A stretch of 25,963 bases of DNA from Spirogloea muscicola (lineage: Eukaryota > Streptophyta > Zygnematophyceae > Spirogloeales > Spirogloeaceae), in the NCBI GenBank assembly GCA_009602725.1, contig WELB01000289.1, forward strand, positions 107,670-133,632, in the 5' to 3' direction. Made by a program: the position numbers and the translations under genes. Below are positions 7,668 through 25,963 of the stretch, piece after piece. The number at the start of each line of letters is the position of its first letter. Position 1 is the first letter of the stretch. Below the pieces are notes generated by a model. The model did not search any database and was not told the DNA's origin. It was given only the letters and a program-made list of their open reading frames with translations.

Positions 7668-7829
7668 GCATCTCTGATCTGCGGCTGCTTAGCAGGGGTT
7701 ACTGAGTGTCTCGTAGCAGCTTTGTTTCTGTTACTTAGCGCTTCCCCTGGCCCCCTTCTCGTACTCTGTTCATTCTTTTTCGGGCTGGTTGTTCCAGCCC
7801 CTATTCTCAATGGGCGAGCACTTTCTTCT
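7668..7829 (+). mobile_element. LINE 3' end, copy 1 of a 162-bp identical direct repeat
   Basis: It starts with the last codons of the element ORF (SDLRLLSRGY, stop), then 3' UTR, the hairpin GGGCTGGTTGTTCCAGCCCC (7782-7801) and ATGGGCGAGCACTTTCTTCT. By eye it is base-for-base identical to 8526-8687, 858 bp downstream. It is 5'-truncated, as is usual for target-primed insertions. Confidence 0.85.
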
Positions 7830-8525
7830 ATTTGGCCCGTTTGGCACCCCTTGTCCCACGGCAGGTGACGTACATTTGTCCCACGGCCAGTGTATCCTGA
7901 GATCGACCACTGCCTACCACTACCCGCCGATAGCGTTCCGTCATGTCTAGTTGTCTAGATGCCTAGCTAGTGTTGGAGCTCTTTGGATATTGTCCATTCT
8001 TTTTTGGCTGGCTTCTGCCAGCCCCTCTCTTCGTGGTTATTGAGCGGGTCAATCTGCTGTAGGTTATGTAGATTTTTAGATGTGCTTGCCTTTGTACCTG
8101 GCCATTTGGCCTACATTTCTTTCTAATACACGATCTCTCCTATTCTCCATGGGCGAGCACTTTCTCTTCTATGGGCGAGCTCATCTTCTTGATAGCCCGG
8201 CCGGTACCCGCCAACACTCATCAAGGTGGGTCACACCCATCGAAGCGGGCTTCAGCGGCTTCTCTTCGGGCTTCTCTTTTGAGCACTTTGGGCGGCAGGA
8301 TACGATTTGCTCGCCAATGCCAGATCACGGCTCGGCGGCAGTTGCGCATCTTCCTGACCGTAGCTGAGCTGGAGGTATGGTGCTCGCGACTCCTATTTTT
8401 CTTTTGGGCTGGCTTGGCGAGCACTTTCTTCTTTGCCAGCCCCTCTTTCTTTATGGGCGAGCCTTCTTTTATTTTGGCCCACTCCAATCTTGTCAATCAT
8501 ATTCGCGCTGGCTTTTCAGAGCCCA
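7830..8525 (+). mobile_element. Further LINE-derived 3' UTR debris
   Basis: It contains hairpin variants at 8006-8023 (GGCTGGCTTCTGCCAGCCC) and 8406-8442 (the arms are split by a short insertion carrying GGCGAGCAC). Repeated ATGGGCGAGC boxes occur near 8150, 8170 and 8454. The stretch 8034-8100 (ATTGAGCGGGTCA ... GTGCTTGCCTTTGTAC) recurs in inverted orientation near 12490-12570. Small open frames here do not look protein-like. Confidence 0.6.
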
Positions 8526-8687
8526 GCATCTCTGATCTGCGGCTGCTTAGCAGGGGTTACTGAGTGTCTCGTAGCAGCTTTGTTTCTGTTACTTAGCGCT
8601 TCCCCTGGCCCCCTTCTCGTACTCTGTTCATTCTTTTTCGGGCTGGTTGTTCCAGCCCCTATTCTCAATGGGCGAGCACTTTCTTCT
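8526..8687 (+). mobile_element. LINE 3' end, copy 2 of the 162-bp identical direct repeat
   Basis: Same content as 7668-7829: ORF end SDLRLLSRGY, 3' UTR, hairpin at 8640-8659 and the GGGCGAGCAC box. It is joined within a few bases to the 5'-truncated endonuclease domain that starts at 8692, forming a head-to-tail junction. Confidence 0.85.
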
Positions 8688-11982: not shown

Positions 11983-12368
11983 ACGAAGAAAGTGCTCGCC
12001 CATTGAGGATAGGGGCTGGAAAAGCCAGCCCAAAAAAGAAGAAACAAAGTACGAGAAGGGGGCCAGGGGAAGCGCTAAAAAAAGCAAGCACACAAAGAAA
12101 CAAAGCAGCTACTAATTACTCAGTAACCCCTGCTAAGCAGCCGCAGATCAGCGGTGCTAGGCTCCTGAAAGTGGGTTCCCTGGCCAGCGCCAGAGGCAGC
12201 AGCGAGGGCTCTGCCGGCACGAAGGTGCAGCGTGTTAAGCAGCCGCAGGTCGGAGAAATAGCTCTTCAAGAAGGGGGCGATGGCTGTGAAAAGCCAGCCC
12301 GAAAAGCATTGACCAGGCCACCCCAGGGTATGAGAGACCAGCCCAGCAGTACAAACAAGTGAAATCAA
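11983..12368 (-). mobile_element. LINE 3' end, minus strand, with a second tail fragment
   Basis: On the minus strand, 12238-12120 reads LHLRAGRALAAASG ... PSTADLRLLSRGY and stop, the same C-terminus as the plus copies. After it come 3' UTR, a perfect hairpin (GGGGCTGGAAAAGCCAGCCC on plus, 12012-12031) and the GGGCGAGCAC box ending near 11987. A second fragment lies upstream: FSDLRLL (about 12250) with another hairpin at 12282-12300. It occupies the DNA just upstream of the first visible prolyl oligopeptidase exon, in the same orientation as that gene. Confidence 0.75.
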
Positions 12369-12411: not shown

Positions 12412-12453
12412 GGGGGGGGGGGGGGGGGGGGGNAGGGGGGGGGGGGGGGGGGG
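12412..12453. repeat. Poly-G run containing an undetermined base
   Basis: About 40 G residues interrupted by N at 12433 and A at 12434. This is probably a real homopolymer whose length was not resolved, so local sequence and spacing should be treated as unreliable. Confidence 0.9.
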
Positions 12454-12585: not shown

Positions 12586-13195
12586 CTAACTGATGCTCGA
12601 ACACCGGACGGCAATCGACAAGCTCTTGAATTACCAGCTAAGGCTCGACCAGCTTTCCGCTCACACCCAGCCCACCTGTGCCAACAAGGCTGGGTATGCG
12701 GTCGCCTGCGCCGCTCGGGCTAAAGAGCTCGTACGCCGATCATCGGCGGGAAGACGAGTTCTTCCCGTTGGCGATTGACACGCATGGGGCGTTGGGCGCT
12801 CGGTGGCTCGAGCTGCTCAACGAGCTCGCCCGCCACGCCATCGTCCGCCGTTTCCATAAGTAGCCGGTGGACTTTCCTGCAGCCGGGTCGTTGGCGCAAG
12901 TGTACCGTATGCGCCTGGCCGTCTCGCTGCAGAGGTCTATGGCCCGCGCGCTGCACCTGCGTGCCAGCGTGCGAGCCCTCGTTGCTGGCTCTGGCCAGGG
13001 GAACCCCTTCCAGGAGCCTAGCATCTCTGATCTGCGGCTGCTTAGCAGGGGTTACTGAGTCATTCGTAGCTGCTTTGTTTCGTTTTGTGCTTGTTTTTCT
13101 TAGTGCTTCCCCTGGCCCCCTTCTCGTGCTGTGTTCATTCTTTTTTGGGCTGGCTTTTCCAGCCCCTATCCTCAATGGGCGAGCACTCTCTTCTT
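12586..13195 (+). mobile_element. 5'-truncated RLE-type LINE: endonuclease C-terminus plus 3' tail
   Basis: The frame reads TCANKAGYAVACAARAK, shifts by one base, then continues EDEFFPLAIDTHGALGARWL and ELARHAIVRRFHK to an in-frame TAG at about 12861. After the stop the frame resumes: PVDFPAAGSLAQVYRMRLAV, SLQRSMARALHLRAS, PSISDLRLLSRGY and stop at 13058. The tail carries the hairpin GGGCTGGCTTTTCCAGCCCC (13147-13166) and ATGGGCGAGCAC. Residue for residue it parallels 8692-9174 but is clearly a separate, diverged copy. The frameshift and stop make it inactive. It meets an oppositely oriented LINE near 13195. Confidence 0.8.
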
Positions 13196-16960: not shown

Positions 16961-16962
<2 letters not shown>

Positions 16963-17001
<39 letters not shown>

Positions 17002-17017
17002 TTCGCCGCTGGCACCT

Positions 17018-17050
<33 letters not shown>
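16963..17050. repeat. (CCG)n trinucleotide repeats
   Basis: Two CCG arrays (about 16963-16999 and 17018-17050) separated by CACCTTCGCCGCTGG units. On the minus strand they would encode poly-Gly, possibly part of the first exon of the coiled-coil gene. Confidence 0.85.
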
Positions 17051-17320: not shown

Positions 17321-17483
17321 AGTGTACTGGTCGAGTACCAAGAAGCGGACGGAGACGTCGACGCCGACGGCGACGGCAACGTCAACGCAGACGCGGACGG
17401 CAACGTCAAACCCCTCGCCTCCACACTGCGAGCCCCGGAGCCTAAAACCCCAAACCCCTGAAGCCCCGCGCCGGGCCAGCGCC

Positions 17484-17484
<1 letters not shown>

Positions 17485-17519
<35 letters not shown>
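17485..17519 (+). repeat. (CGG)n repeat immediately before the LYAR start codon
   Basis: About eleven CGG units end directly at the ATG at 17520. If translated in the open upstream frame they would give poly-Ala. As 5' UTR they form a GC-rich barrier at the start site. Confidence 0.85.
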
Positions 17520-17520
<1 letters not shown>

Positions 17521-19647
17521 TGGTGTGGTTTCAGTGCGAGGACTGCGGCGCGGAGCTGAAGAAGCCGAAGCTCAAGGCGCACTTCTTCCAGTGCGCCGCC
17601 AGCCGGGTGCGCGCCCGGGCCCCCGGCCCGCGGCCCCACTCTGCGGCGCTTGCTGTGCTCCCAGCGGCGCGAGCCCCAAGACCTAAAGTCCGAACCCTAA
17701 ACCCGAACCCTTGCTTTGGCGGCGGCGGCGGCGCGCAGCTCTCGTGCCTGGACTGCGGCGTGGTGTTCGACCGCCGGAGCGTGCAGGACCACACCTCCTG
17801 CGTCACCGAGACGGTGAGCGCACGCCGCCGCCAGGTGCCCCGGCGCGCACCCGGCTGGCGGCGCACTGTAATAGCTGCGCCTCCAGCTCCGGCTTCCTCA
17901 GCTCCGCGCCGCAGTCCTTGCACTGGAGCCACACCGTCTCTGCCGCCGCCGCCGCCGTCGCCGCCCCGGCGTGTGGATCCAGGGTCTGGGTTTGAAGGGT
18001 CTGGGGCTCCTCTCGGGGGGAGGGTTTAACGTCGTCGTCCGCTTTGCAGGAGAAGTACGGCCCCAAGGGACCCACCAAGGCTGCCCCAGCAGCCATGGCG
18101 CCCCGCTCGACCGCCGCGCCGGCGCCGGCCCGGCCGCTCAACGGCCACGCTCTGCTGCCCACCAGGCAAGCTGCATTGCCGTCGCCGCCGTCACGGCCCT
18201 GCGCTGCGGAGCTCTCCGGCGCGCCGTTGATGGCTGCACGACTCATATGGTGTTAGTATCAATCTTCTCGTAGTAAGAGTAAAGCTCGCTCGTGTCGTAG
18301 ACCATGGATTCGAAGTTCGCCTTCCTCTTGAAGGAGTCCCAATGTGCTCGCGGCGACCGGCAGCCATGGTCAGTTCTCCTTGTCACCAGCCTTGTGCCGT
18401 TGCCTCGCTTTGGTATGCGAAGCAGGGCCCACGAGAAGCCGGAGGCAGCGCCAAGTGGGGTGCTGAGCGCTGCGCTGAGTAAGGCCGCTGCTGCTTCTGA
18501 GAAGTCGCCGCAGGTGGCAGAGGCGGAGACCCGCGAGAAGGCGAAAAAGGGGAAGCTGAAGAATGAGCAGAGGAGGGGGGGTGAGGCCAATAGATCTGGC
18601 AAGACGGATGAAGAGGTCCGCTCACAGCAGCTCCAGAAGACGAGCGTGAGTAAGGAAGTGCTTGATGAAAGGAATCGGGAGAGCAAGCTGCCAGCCATGG
18701 CGACCAAGCCCGCCATGCCTGAGACGTTGCTGGAAACGGCAGGGGAGGAGGGCAGGAGGAGGGAGAAGAAGAATGGGAAGATGGCGTCCAAGATGAGGAA
18801 CGAAGCGGGGCAGCAGCAGGAGGAGGAGGGCAAGGGTGAAGGAGCGGCAGCCACGAGCATCGCCACGAGTCACGTGGCATTAGAGGAAAGCGCAGTGCCG
18901 GCAGCGGGAGCAGGAGATGCAGCCCCGCTTTCCGTCGCTGGTGCAGGCGGGAGAGAGGCCACGAAGGGCCGCAAGACGGCAAAGCCTGTCGCTGCGGCGG
19001 CACTGCCGGTGGAGGTGGCGGCTCGCCCAGAATGTGGCACCAAGGGTCCTCCTGCCGTGAGCAGGACTCTGCAGAAGCGCAAGGGGCTGGAAGGCGGTCT
19101 GGCTGCCGCACCGCTTCCTGTTGCCGAAGCTCCAGCAGGCAAGAAGAAGCGAAGGAAGGTCGATGCGGCGACAGAAGATGGATCGAGGTTGACCCAGCCG
19201 GCAGCAGCAGCCGGTGCAGCGTGCCGGGAGGGCGGCGCCGCAACAAGCCCATCAAACGGCCATGCCGACGTCACACCGTCCCTCCATCCACCGATGAGTG
19301 GCGGGGCTCTGGCCAGCAGCGCGGTGGCAGAGAGTGGGGCGGTGGGCCGGCGACGTAAGGAGACAAAAGCGGACAAGGTGCGGCGGCTGAAGGCGGAGAA
19401 GGACGCGAAGCGGGAGGCGATGCTGGCTAAGGCGCGGGAGCGCAAGGTGCTGCGCAAGGCTCTGCGGGCTGCAAGGGTCCACGAGCTCAAGGCCGAGGTG
19501 GCAAAGGCGGGCACTGCCAGCCCTGCCGACGCACTCAAGGCCCTGCAGACGCGCGCGGAGAAGCGGCGGCTGAAGATGGCACTCAAACTGGCCGTTGCAG
19601 AGAGTGTGCCTGCCACTCAAGTTGGGGGCCTGCTGGCCAGGGTCTGA
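17520..19647 (+). CDS. LYAR: LYAR-like nucleolar C2HC zinc-finger protein
   Basis: Exon 1, 17520-17606, begins MVWFQCEDCGAELKKPKL and ends ...HFFQCAASR. Exon 2, 17739-17813, reads LSCLDCGVVFDRRSVQDHTS then CVTET. Exon 3 starts at 18050 with EKYGPKGPTKAA. This is the paired C-x2-C ... H-x3-C finger plus EKYGPKG signature of LYAR, a nucleolar growth regulator and rRNA-processing/transcription factor. Zinc ligands Cys6, Cys9, His21 and Cys25 are present in finger 1. The best continuation uses a GC donor (ACCAG|GCAAGC, after 18165) to an acceptor at 18426, joining in phase to a long last exon (to TGA 19647) rich in Lys, Ala and Glu, with a basic coiled segment ETKADKVRRLKAEKDAKREA, as expected for the nucleolar-targeting tail. 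A small alternative exon at 18301-18368 is also possible. An AATAAA lies at 19691. The start was chosen because LYAR proteins begin at this Met, although the frame is open upstream. Intron 2 contains an inverted copy of exon 1. Confidence 0.88.
17680..17716 (+). repeat. Telomere-like CCCTAAA motifs in LYAR intron 1
   Basis: GACCTAAAGTCCGAACCCTAAACCCGAACCC. Similar degenerate motifs lie upstream of exon 1 (17438-17462) and, in GGGTTT sense, in intron 2 (17985-18030). Confidence 0.6.
17821..18010 (-). repeat. Inverted duplicate of LYAR exon 1 and its upstream flank, inside intron 2
   Basis: On the minus strand, 17937-17833 reads TVWLQCKDCGAELRKPELEA then QLLQCAASR, nearly the same as exon 1 of the host gene on the plus strand. 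The similarity continues past both ends: into the first bases of intron 1 (GTGCGCGCC) on one side and, upstream, through a CGG-like repeat into the CCCTAAA-like flank (EPQTLQTQT versus EPRSLKPQT in conceptual translation). The Met codon is ACG and the zinc-ligand His has become Gln, so it is not a usable exon. It begins only about 8 nt after the exon 2 donor. Confidence 0.85.
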
Positions 19648-20908: not shown

Positions 20909-23900
20909 CTGTACTTGCTATCCTGCTAAGTAAGCCACTGAACATCCGAATCAAGTAATGCACAGACATCAGCGACTGAACTTTCTCGACACTGCATGAG
21001 GATTTCATAGGTATACCTTGTCAAAAGAGAGCCCAGCAATCTGCCGCTGCAGATCCTCCATCATCTCGCGGCATTGAATGCTCCGCGTCATCACGTAATC
21101 ACTACACTGCTGCTTCAGGGCGGTAATCGCGTCCTGCAGGGTGATGTAGAACTTGAGCCCCTCATTTATATTTCCCCGGATTTCGCGGTACTTGGCCACG
21201 GCTGCCTCGATCTGCTTGCAGACCTTGTCCTTTTCAGCTGCGCAAGGTTGGACAACACTGCTGCTGTATGCCTCCAAACTTGAGCACAACGTGCCTCTAT
21301 GCCCCAGTAAGCTAACATCATGAAGTCAACATGGCAGGCCCTGAGAAGCTACATCATTGTCATGCTGCGGGCAACGAAATTTACAGTTGAGAGCTCAATT
21401 TGGGTGTGATTGCAGCAGTAAACCCTTACCATTGTGGTCCCTTAGATTGAAGGCATCCGCAAATATGTCACACTGAGCCTGCAGATGCCAGTGGCTCTCG
21501 TGATGTCAGGAGCACAAATGAGCTCATCAAGGACGACATTGATCAGGCTAGGCTGTTTGCCACTTCCGAGAAACCTGAGATGGGAACAGGAATGTACGCT
21601 GTATCCCCACTTGACCTACGTGATCACAATGTGAGCTGGCAAAGTGGAGCACTGTGAGTATCCACAGCTCTTGACCAACCTTGATCTCTTGAAGAAGGTT
21701 CTGCTGAGCTTGCACGTTCTGGCTAACTTCGGCACAGACCGGATCATACTTGGCCAACTCTCGCTTAAAAAGGTCTTCATAGGAGCCGGATGTTGTCAAC
21801 AAGTGATTCAGAATGTTGTCCTGTAAGGGAAGTACAAGAGACATTGACGCAACAGCTCTTACCAAAAATCTAAGCAACGCCTTACAATAAGTGCTTATAT
21901 CGCAAGATGTTTGCAGGGACTCTGTTGGCAACAGTAGCTTAGGAATTGCTACGCAACTATCTCCTGAGAAAGAGCAAGACCCTCGTTGTTGATGTGCTAC
22001 TACACAAGCATACCATAGACTACCTCCTGCCTCTGAACCCTCCCCCTACCACCGTGAGGCTTGCCATATACCTTGCGCTTCATGTCCTTTAGCATGTCCT
22101 CAAGTCCTGCCCTTTCCTGCCCCAGCTTCTCCAGGTCAGCCTGGTAGGAGCACAGAAGCCTCGGCAAAGTAAGTCCCCGCAGAAGCGAGCTGCCTACAAC
22201 TTCCATAATGCCAGCAACATACTGCCAGTATCATGCATAGAGTCCATCAGGTAGTGCACCCCAGATAGAGGCGATTAAGAATGTCCATTACCAAAAGGTC
22301 TCTTAGAGTTGCTGCTATATGGTCCTCATTTCCGTGGACCGATACAATTGGTCTTGTCAACTTGGGGAGCGCAGCTTCAACCTGCATAGTGAAGAGATGG
22401 ACTTGTCAAACGCCCACTGAGGGTCCTAGACGGAGCAAATGATTTGACAAGTACAATCTACATCGTCAGCAAATGGGTGACAGCGCTTACTTTGTGGACA
22501 CTGATCATCAGCAGGATCAATGCCAACATAATAAAACGCATGATTAACATGTCTGGTAAAACATTGGTGAGTGCCACATGTGCTCACTGGCTGAGTACTC
22601 AGGACGGAAAGGAGCTGCCGGTTGTCCTCAATAGCCTTCTCAATCCTGGCATCGCTCTCCCCTGCCTGCTTCAAGTTGCCAGCAAACCCATTGGCCCGAT
22701 CGCGCAGGTTCTTGGTCAATGTGCTGGACTGAGGACGTGTCCACCTAGTGCCAAACTGAGCCCGAATCTGAGCATCCTCCCTTGACTCTTTCTCCAATGT
22801 CTCCTCCGTCTGAAGCACAGCCAAGCAATAATCAACAACAACTTTCTTGCTAGAAAGTGGACAATTAAGTCATATCTCAGATGTTCCATCCAATCATTCA
22901 GTACATCTGCTGGAGCCCAATTAGAGAGCATTGTTGAATGCCGTGCTCTCAAATTGTATAAGCTGGTTATGCATGGTTTATATTGTGGGAGTACTGCAAT
23001 GGATGTGCCAGACTGTTTGATGTACATGTTGCTACACTTTCGAGCAGAGTGGTACCTGTACAAGAAGCTCCTCATTGACTCGACGAAGGTCTTTGAGCTG
23101 GGCTAGCTCCTGCAGCATGTTTCAAGAGACCAGCATTCAGGGCCAAACAGAAGCACACTGTCACAATGCACTAGCCTCAGTAGGGGGCTTGAGGCAGCCT
23201 GTAGCTACCTGAACTTCCCTACATACTACCTTGCAGACATGTTCTCTTGTAGGCAAGTCCTTCCACCATTCACATATCCATAGAGATTCATAGACATGCA
23301 AGGCTTTCAGTTGTATGCATCGCAGACAGCGGCCATGAGTACCTGCTGTAAACCAGCAGGTCCACCATCCACCAGGACTGCTTCAACGTCGTCGCGGAGA
23401 TGGTCAGGCAGCACATTGGTTCCTTCCAAAGCCAAGAGAGCATCCGGCATATTCATCTCCTTTAGCTTAACCCTGGTCACATTGCTCTCCTGCTCAAGCT
23501 TCTCAGCCTAGACAGAGGTCACACCAGCTATTTAGGAAAATGAGATCAACATCTGTAGCCGGGCTGTGTGCTGAAAACAAATCAAGATGAGTATCGTAAC
23601 CGCTACAGAGTATATGGTGCTCGAAACGAACTCTTCTGGGTTTGAATGCACATTGAACATGGCAGCTCAGAAGATTTCAGAAAGCAAGCAGGCTGACAAG
23701 TTGCCGACCTGGGTGCGGATGATATTGTCCACCATCTCAGTGTACTTGGAGAGGGCTTTGGCGCTGCTGTCTGGCACCAAACCCACAAACATCTTCTCGT
23801 TGCTGGCGTCCAGCACATCAGTCATTGGGAAGCTCTTGACCAGGGTAGCGGCGGGCAGGGGTGGCAGCGTGTCGTTCGACGGGACCCGCATGAGATATAC

Positions 23901-25676
23901 ACGGTCGTTCTCCTTGTTGGCTCTCTCCAGATTGCGGAGCACGGCCACCTCCAGCTTGCTCACCGCGTCCACGAGGGGGCCTACCACGCCCCTGGAATTC
24001 TTCTTCACTTCGCTGATGACTCCACTGGCTGCCTGTTGAGTTGACTCAGAAGTACACGAGGCACACTTCTAGTCAAGGTTACTGAGAATAATTTCTCTCC
24101 GCAGGCTAAGAGGCTAATATGTGAGATGTTCCAATAGTCACCATCTCATTGTAGCAATACTTCACATCACTTCATAGTTCTGCTGTGATGCTAGCCATGA
24201 GATTCAGCAAGGGGCTCGCTCTGACCTTGAGGCGAGCAATCTCCTCTGCAATGTTTTCCTGCGCGTGCAAGTCAAGAGCCACCCGGAAGTACGCCTCCGC
24301 GTGGAACTGAGCAGCCTTGAGCTGCACGTGATTGAGCCACGTCCTGACAGCGGCGATGGATGGCGTCTACATCAGCATGGCAACGAGTCTCTACCCACGC
24401 AGTCAGATACCACAAGACCATAGTGCACATATACCATGTGCAGGGACTCCAGAGGCACCTGTCAAAGTGCTGATTCAAGGGAGGCAGGAGGAGTGCTGCG
24501 TAGGCCTCCTCGTAATACATCCAGACCTGCTTGGCCACCTTAGAGCACAAGGCAGGTGGCTTGCCGTCCGCAAGAACCTTCTCGAAGAAGCACTCCTGCA
24601 AAGGAGCACGTCACTACTGCATCATTACCGACACAATCTGACAATGTGTGTACTTTGCAAAATCGTCCAACCAGGCAACATTGCAGCAACTCCTCCGTAC
24701 TTTGCTGTCACCGAGACTTAGGTGACAGGAGGTTAGCTGCCGCATCGTCGTTCAAAGCATTTGCGCGAGCTAGTGGTACAATCCACGAAGGGCAGCAACA
24801 AGCGCCGGAGGTGGCAATGAGGGAAGGTCTCCACCGACCTGCGCTTGGGCCAGCATGAAGCGCTCCAGCATGCCGGCACACTCCACTGAGACGTCTGGCG
24901 TGCAGTTTGCGGGATTCGCTGAAAATGCCTGCTCCATGGAACCACTTCAATTTTAGCTCAGCTTTCTTGTGAGGAAGATGCAATGGCAGTTTCAGTAAGC
25001 TCGAAGGTTAGCAGGAGACCCTCAGCAGCTAGTTGCAACCTGCGCTGTGTGTAACGAGCTAACCAACACCAGAGCACATGCTGTGTTAAGAAGCACTGAG
25101 CTTGTTCGCGGGGACCCTGACCTTGATTGCAATGTTGTCCCGTAGAAATGCGAAGGCTCCTGCCGCAGCCTGGCAGAGGCAGCAAGCCGAACGAGCTGCG
25201 CTCAGCTTGCAGCGGAGAAGACGCCGAGCAGTTCGTGCCTTCATTCAGCTTTTGTGCTTTAATCATCTAATCGGCTCCCGAGTGTGGAAGTGAACTATGC
25301 CAAGCAAATGGCTAAATTTGTCAAAAGACAGTACTTGGAAGCAATTGCAGGCCTGCTTGAGGCCGGCGGGCGTGGAGCGGTCGGCGGACAGCGCGAGCTG
25401 GCTCTGCACGGCGCCGAGGTTGAAGGCGACGGCGGCCTTCTCGAAGTGGATGTTCTGCTGGGTGGCCTTGCGCGACTGCTTGATGGCGTCGAACCACGTG
25501 AAGGCCAGCGTGTTGACGTGCTCGCGCTCGCCCGAAATGGGGAAGCGCGACTCCATGACGGCGAGCGCGCGGTAGTAGCGCTGCAGCAGGTCGCGCCGGG
25601 CCTCGAGCCCGTCGCCCTGGCGCTCCACCGCCACCCGCATCTCCTGCACCGCTTGCAGGTCGTCATCGGCGTCCTG
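20004..25676 (-). CDS. ALIX-type BRO1-domain ESCRT accessory protein, 17 exons, N-terminus beyond the window
   Basis: Transcript-order exons: 25676-25335, 25169-25122, 24928-24839, 24595-24459, 24343-24226, 24032-23709, 23507-23343, 23109-23056, 22809-22588, 22381-22292, 22140-22072, 21820-21680, 21478-21430, 21237-21017, 20908-20729, 20525-20451 and 20273-20004. All have GT-AG borders and matching phases, giving about 864 residues. Plant-type ALIX proteins are of similar length, and about 45 N-terminal residues seem to be missing. BRO1 domain: ESRFPISGEREHVNTLAFTW, KAAVAFNLGAVQSQLAL, VECAGMLERFMLAQAQECFF. V-shaped coiled-coil domain: YTEMVDNIIRTQ, VKLKEMNMPDALLALEGTN, QFGTRWTRPQSS. The family links ESCRT-I and ESCRT-III at endosomes for multivesicular-body sorting. 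The C-terminus is a Pro/Gln/Tyr-rich tail ending GNYYK. No frameshift or stop interrupts the chain, so the gene looks intact. The first exon lies above 25963. Confidence 0.93.
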
Positions 25677-25963
25677 CTCAGCCCACGGGCCATGGCAATG
25701 GCAGGTCAGTGCCGCTGCTGACAGTGAGGCCACGTTGTTGAGGGTGACTGGTGGCTCACACTGCCCTGTGTGAGCGTCGCAGGCCTTCTGATGCTCAGAC
25801 GAGGGAGGCGCTTATTCATTGCTTGACCAGGCACAAGTCCAAAGAGCGAAGGGTAGTCCCTCCCTCTCCTCACCCTCCCCACCCCGGCCTCTCTCTCTCC
25901 CTCCCTCCCTCCCTCCCTCCCTCCCCACTCGTTCGCCCTGCTCTCTCTCCCTCCTCCCCCTTC
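25677..25963 (-). other. Intron of the ALIX-type gene with a CT-rich tract
   Basis: No sequence matching the expected N-terminus of a BRO1 domain was found between the first visible exon and the window end. 25858-25930 is CTCTCCCTCC-type low complexity, polypurine in the sense of the gene. Confidence 0.6.

Follow-up and report, generated by a model that had tools for sequence, protein, structure and literature searches.

An inverted copy of the start of a LYAR gene makes up most of its own second intron in Spirogloea muscicola: probably an old local duplication

How an intron may come to consist largely of a backwards copy of the gene that contains it, and whether the RNA of such a gene would be affected, are the questions raised by a locus of the zygnematophycean alga Spirogloea muscicola. 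The window, i.e. the whole stretch of DNA that was analysed, is 25,963 nucleotides long (C289:107670-133632), and searches of the alga's own genome were carried out over the 153-Mb assembly. The gene at 17520-19647 (plus strand) of the window is LYAR, as originally proposed. When its exons are joined and translated, 499 residues are open; the zf-LYAR profile (PF08790) matches residues 30-57 of the product at 47.3 bits, against a curated cut-off of 20.7 bits, and residues 1-61 align with the LYAR entries 1wjv and 6zmi. The exon borders (table 1) were taken from reading of the DNA sequence alone. A (GCG)12 run (17484-17519) directly precedes exon 1, at a gene start that we take to be plant-like, and a long CCG-rich run (16961-17050), complementary to the CGG run preceding the start codon, lies upstream of LYAR. 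The surroundings also include an ALIX-like gene on the minus strand (21548-25733), convergent with LYAR, with BRO1 and ALIX_LYPXL_bnd matches in three frames, and an uninterrupted (CA)210 dinucleotide run at positions 1-420.

Table 1. Coordinates in the window of the LYAR exons and introns, of the two arms of the inverted pair and of the insertion in intron 3.
Feature	Position	Strand	Description and basis
Source arm	17387-17634	+	Upstream flank or 5'UTR, CGG run, exon 1 and first 28 nt of intron 1; alignments
LYAR exon 1	17520-17606	+	29 codons, first zinc knuckle; sequence reading, open spliced frame, 1wjv match
LYAR exon 2	17739-17813	+	75 nt, 25 codons, phase 0-0; bulk of the zf-LYAR motif
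LYAR intron 2	17814-18049	+	236 nt; counterpart in the C105 paralogue, 80 nt
Inverted copy of 17387-17634	17824-18047	-	Core 17824-18006 certain, 18007-18047 weaker; alignments
LYAR exon 3	18050-18165	+	Spliced frame
LYAR intron 3	18166-18425	+	GC-AG as read, likewise in the C105 paralogue
Intron 3 insertion relative to the paralogue	18238-18352	-	About 115 nt; 76 nt match C204:15684-15759 at 83%
LYAR last exon	18426-19647	+	Spliced frame

The original prediction placed at 17485-18010 a block of roughly 190 bp around exon 1 that is repeated in reverse orientation in intron 2, and named exact alignment of the two arms as the check. Both arms do align, and over more than the length claimed. The ungapped arms (17487-17627 versus 17830-17970) are 141 nt long and 86% complementary; gapped alignment with a strict score pairs 17448-17634 with 17824-18006 (151 of 183 aligned positions identical, 4 gap positions), while looser scoring reaches the full extent given in table 1 (187/224 aligned identical, 24 gap positions, 17 of which form a single gap at about the point where the CGG run begins). 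Thus, the location first given was right and its span slightly too narrow, as the arms extend to 17387 and 18047; similarly, the copy does begin close to the exon 2 donor, its first base lying 10 nt past it instead of the predicted 8 or so. The loss from the copy of the Met and of the zinc-ligand His was also correctly read, with ATG changed to ACG and CAC to CAG in the gapped alignment. The match between the arms is not due to chance, and this does not depend on the CGG run: 1000 second-order Markov randomisations of intron 2 gave a strict score of 47 at most, while the arms reach 189, and the corresponding values once the CGG run is excluded are 37 and 144. The extension past 18006, which was tested post hoc after it had been sighted, has by itself a score of 34; among 2000 first-order Markov randomisations (maximum, 39), 0.2% attained that value. 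Without this extension the final 43 nt of intron 2 are uncertain as copy. With the copy at 17824-18047, all that is left of intron 2 is about 10 nt at its start and 2 nt at its end, so that nearly the whole of the 236-nt intron is a backwards copy of the start of LYAR. GCC/CGG-rich sequence was seen by eye at the copy junctions.

The copy crosses the exon 1 donor into intron 1 and, therefore, derives from genomic DNA rather than from cDNA. Among the best candidates scored in the alga's own genome, the arm matches LYAR exon 1 (in the window and on C105) and, weakly, CGG-rich stretches, of which two are on C29 and one is just upstream of the paralogue exon 1; thus, it is not a dispersed repeat. 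An origin from a dispersed repeat, a transposon or a MITE, which would call for many copies, was accordingly rejected. The C29 matches (75% over 88 nt; 37 nt of CGG run) were rejected as relatives of LYAR and taken as low complexity, being a GCC/CGG-rich stretch on a contig with no PF08790 match. Inverted pairs were also sought in a control sample of 20 segments (139,064 letters, two segments being all N), which were picked by contig number at one coordinate, except for L024 on C204, picked for its match, and are thus non-random genome-wide. The first limits (non-overlapping inverted pairs of at least 100 nt with at least 80% identity within 1 kb) sit just below the 81% of the LYAR pair, and the control was repeated at 65% identity and 90 nt; a looser initial scan also gave shorter and more distant pairs, the copy counts covering just the two stated limits. 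At 80% identity or above, the arms of all six control pairs have 11-41 copies each in the sample, and at the lowered limits those of all 11 control pairs have from 4 to 43. The arms of the LYAR pair have 2 copies, namely the pair itself, with no other match in the control sample and window. The lowest-copy control pairs at the lowered limits are in L033 (4 copies, in one segment) and L035 (5 copies); the arms of four overlapping control palindromes have 2, 3, 9 and 19 copies, the 2-copy palindrome being L037:1-947, at the segment edge, and the 3-copy one being also in L037. The LYAR pair is, therefore, unusual in that it derives from a gene and has no further copies, but, from the low-copy inverted sequence in L037, L033 and L035, perhaps not unique in kind. 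Elsewhere in the window, 11985-12232 and 12949-13193 form a close inverted pair with 20 copies in the control sample and window; 7668-7828 and 8514-8686 belong, partly inverted, to the same dispersed repeat family.

The age of the copy was estimated by comparison with a LYAR paralogue at C105:277311, in which intron 2 lacks the inverted copy. A partial copy of the paralogue, limited to part of the gene, is found about 52 kb away at C105:225233 (99.9% over 1347 bp); its intron 2 likewise measures 80 nt and lacks the inverted copy. These twin stretches (L009 and L010) may reflect a recent duplication, an allele or a scaffolding artefact. The PF08790 search places zf-LYAR at three sites in the assembly (C289 and two on C105), and a third LYAR homoeologue was not found, the DNA search with the last exon returning the same three places. 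Between the window LYAR and the paralogue, 42/255 fourfold sites differ (0.186 after correction, or roughly 0.093 for each lineage), and the proteins agree at 421 of 500 aligned residues. Over 110 sites in exon 1 and the beginning of intron 1, private changes number 14 in the arm, 2 in the window exon 1 and 4 in the paralogue exon 1, while a one-base gap in intron 1 is common to the arm and the window gene. Unconstrained drift since the paralogue split predicts 10.2 changes in the arm (probability of 14 or more, 0.15), in a test on 110 sites that weak constraint would escape. The 32 arm mismatches consist of 17 transversions, 9 wobble-keeping transitions and 6 pair-breaking transitions, and no bias toward pairing was found among these transitions (9 G-U-keeping versus 6 breaking, p = 0.61). 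With divergence at or above the neutral level and no pairing bias, the earlier proposal that the copy is either recent or under some constraint is not borne out; by its substitutions, the arm is not of recent date, and no slow-down is seen in it. We infer that the copy was gained in the window gene and not lost from the paralogue. The arm may also predate the paralogue split, with loss on the C105 side, and the 14 arm-only changes against 10.2 expected lean toward such a loss.

Compared with the paralogue, the window gene carries a second insertion, in intron 3 (table 1). The site that it matches on C204 has a minus-strand frame of 376 codons. The two minus-strand frames on C204 yielded no Pfam family at cut-off, the intron 3 fragment yielded no PDB match, and a second copy of the frame adjoining the C204 match was not found in the genome search. 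If both were gained here and not lost from the paralogue, the presence in LYAR of two foreign or inverted pieces would suit patch-type repair.

Taken together, we assign a probability of about 0.65 to an old local inverted duplication, produced by repair or template switch, that has been drifting neutrally, any RNA effects being tolerated rather than selected. A DNA repair or replication event at LYAR, presumably a template switch or fold-back, would have placed a reverse-complement copy of the gene's start, at most about 248 bp long and with the exon 1 donor included, in intron 2, at a time about equal to or earlier than the split of the two LYAR paralogues. By alignment, the copy now forms nearly the whole intron between donor and acceptor; it would since have drifted without detectable constraint. 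Intron 2 is probably still spliced out, which would leave the protein unaffected, and the likeliest consequence of the hairpin, if any, would be low-level Dicer products or slower splicing, tolerated and not selected. As the sequence carries no sign of selection, a repair scar is the most likely explanation; the neutral-like divergence and the lack of pairing bias count in favour of a neutral one, and the insertion in intron 3 of the same gene suits patch-like repair. However, the stems still pair well and both splice sites have survived, which selection would also bring about and which counts against neutrality.

Unspliced LYAR RNA is predicted to fold into a long hairpin enclosing exon 2. 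A 621-nt segment of the pre-mRNA folds at −437.5 kcal/mol (z, −16.3; 0/20 shuffles as good), as compared with a z of −1.5 for the matching 469-nt segment of the paralogue (5/100 shuffles as good). In the minimum free energy structure, the intron 2 arm is paired with 132 nt of the exon 1 arm (17448-17634, 187 nt), so that the enclosing hairpin of about 100 bp proposed at the outset is reproduced, as a prediction, at a size that was right or low; the donor base of exon 1, 17607, has 17850 as its partner. From 132 to 136 nt pair between the arms in five contexts of differing length and at 20 °C, and 119 nt still do so in the predicted fold with intron 1 removed. In the single fold that took in the CCG-rich run upstream of the gene, that run did not take the place of the intron 2 arm. 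The window arm is also predicted to form a duplex with the paralogue exon 1 (−283.3 kcal/mol).

The structure could be a proto-microRNA or self-targeting hairpin, cut by Dicer in the pre-mRNA to give small RNAs that restrain LYAR and, as exon 1 is shared, its paralogue. This alternative, although the best placed, is unlikely. The stability of the predicted hairpin, kept in all the fold contexts, argues for it, as does the duplex with the paralogue exon 1, by which small RNAs against exon 1 could hit both genes. Genome profile searches gave paired neighbouring RNase III matches at three places (C67, C277 and C9) and four Argonaute-like loci (C188, C41, C54 and C5), so that a dsRNA pathway probably exists; these loci appear to fit what PMC7994812 reports for Spirogloea muscicola, namely 3 DCL2/3/4 copies, 3 AGO1/5/10 genes and AGO2/3/7. 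In combination with the strong predicted hairpin, they make small RNAs or splicing effects possible. Furthermore, inverted duplication is described in PMC3237417 as a route to plant miRNAs, and hairpins in maize genes correlate with small RNAs according to the portion of PMC10760457 that deals with them. On the other hand, the arm substitutions are without pairing bias, no Rfam match at gathering score was found within the window, and the passages of PMC7994812 on the two published Zygnematophyceae genomes report DCL1 as not identified there, which counts here if the present genome is among the two. Of the features that characterize MIRNA or proto-miRNA loci, a stable self-complementary precursor is predicted here (z, −16.3), but a conserved stem with compensatory changes was not found, in a comparison of limited power with the paralogue only, which lacks the arm (9 versus 6, p = 0.61).

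Somewhat less probable is an effect on splicing, in which pairing would hide the exon 1 donor and loop out exon 2, leading to retention, to a circular exon 2 or to a transcript that skips the second zinc knuckle in frame. It is consistent with the pairing of the donor base, with the arm pairing predicted even after removal of intron 1 and with the length and phase of exon 2 (75 nt, phase 0), the skipping of which would cost the protein most of its second zinc knuckle without shifting the frame. However, the support comes from thermodynamic folding, and fast co-transcriptional splicing of intron 1 could pre-empt pairing. Circularisation seems the weakest of the proposed RNA consequences, because exon 1 and upstream sequence make up most of the 5′ arm and just 28 nt of it fall within intron 1, whereas in the usual circRNA architecture complementary arms lie in both introns flanking the exon. 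Slightly more doubtful still is a built-in self-targeting silencer, with the intron acting as antisense of its own exon 1, so that unspliced RNA would pair, yield small RNAs and buffer the dose of LYAR and its paralogue. Finally, a chimeric inverted join made during assembly is very improbable, for, in spite of the long N runs in L009, L036 and L038, the two 99.9% identical 1347-bp stretches of the paralogue on C105 and the 947-bp palindrome at the edge of L037, about 17% of aligned sites differ between the arms, which an artefactual join should have left almost identical, the window has a single N (at 12433) and the copy junctions leave usable splice sites.

A probable old local inverted duplication sets LYAR beside several known systems. 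As a non-dispersed, reverse-complement copy of part of the same gene, the LYAR case would belong to the known inverted gene-segment duplications. The original inverted duplication model of plant miRNA origin is reportedly that of Allen et al. 2004. As outlined in PMC3237417, an inverted copy gives in that model a long hairpin that matches its source, as in LYAR, where, however, the hairpin lies within the pre-mRNA of the source gene itself, one arm is the exon, and the small RNA is hypothetical. The RNA hairpins attributed to template switching in the available part of PMC8794818 are similar in that a single event of reverse-complement copying of nearby sequence makes the stem, but those stems are short (up to tens of bases, in rRNA genes), whereas that of LYAR takes in an exon and measures about 180 to 250 bp, its arms being about 190 nt apart. 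In the intron-split miRNA precursors treated in sections of PMC11706861 (miR444 and a Solanaceae miRNA), the two sides of the hairpin are also separated by spliceable sequence; those precursors make mature miRNA, the Solanaceae one being conserved, while the 3′ arm of LYAR is itself the intron and would disappear on splicing. The miRNA-like secondary structures within maize genes likewise are strong local hairpins in protein-coding transcripts, but, in the account given in part of PMC10760457, they are nearly ubiquitous in expressed regions, in contrast to the one long exon duplication of LYAR. Among the titles listed in searches of open PMC papers, none was recognised that describes an intron made of an inverted copy of an exon of its own gene, which is weak evidence of absence.

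The locus offers a clean natural example, for which a paralogue serves as comparison, of the way in which a single inverted duplication can make an intron the antisense of the gene around it. Should small RNAs arise from it, a self-targeting precursor would have been caught in an alga; should they not, the locus would show that a gene with an intact reading frame tolerates a strong hairpin covering an exon.
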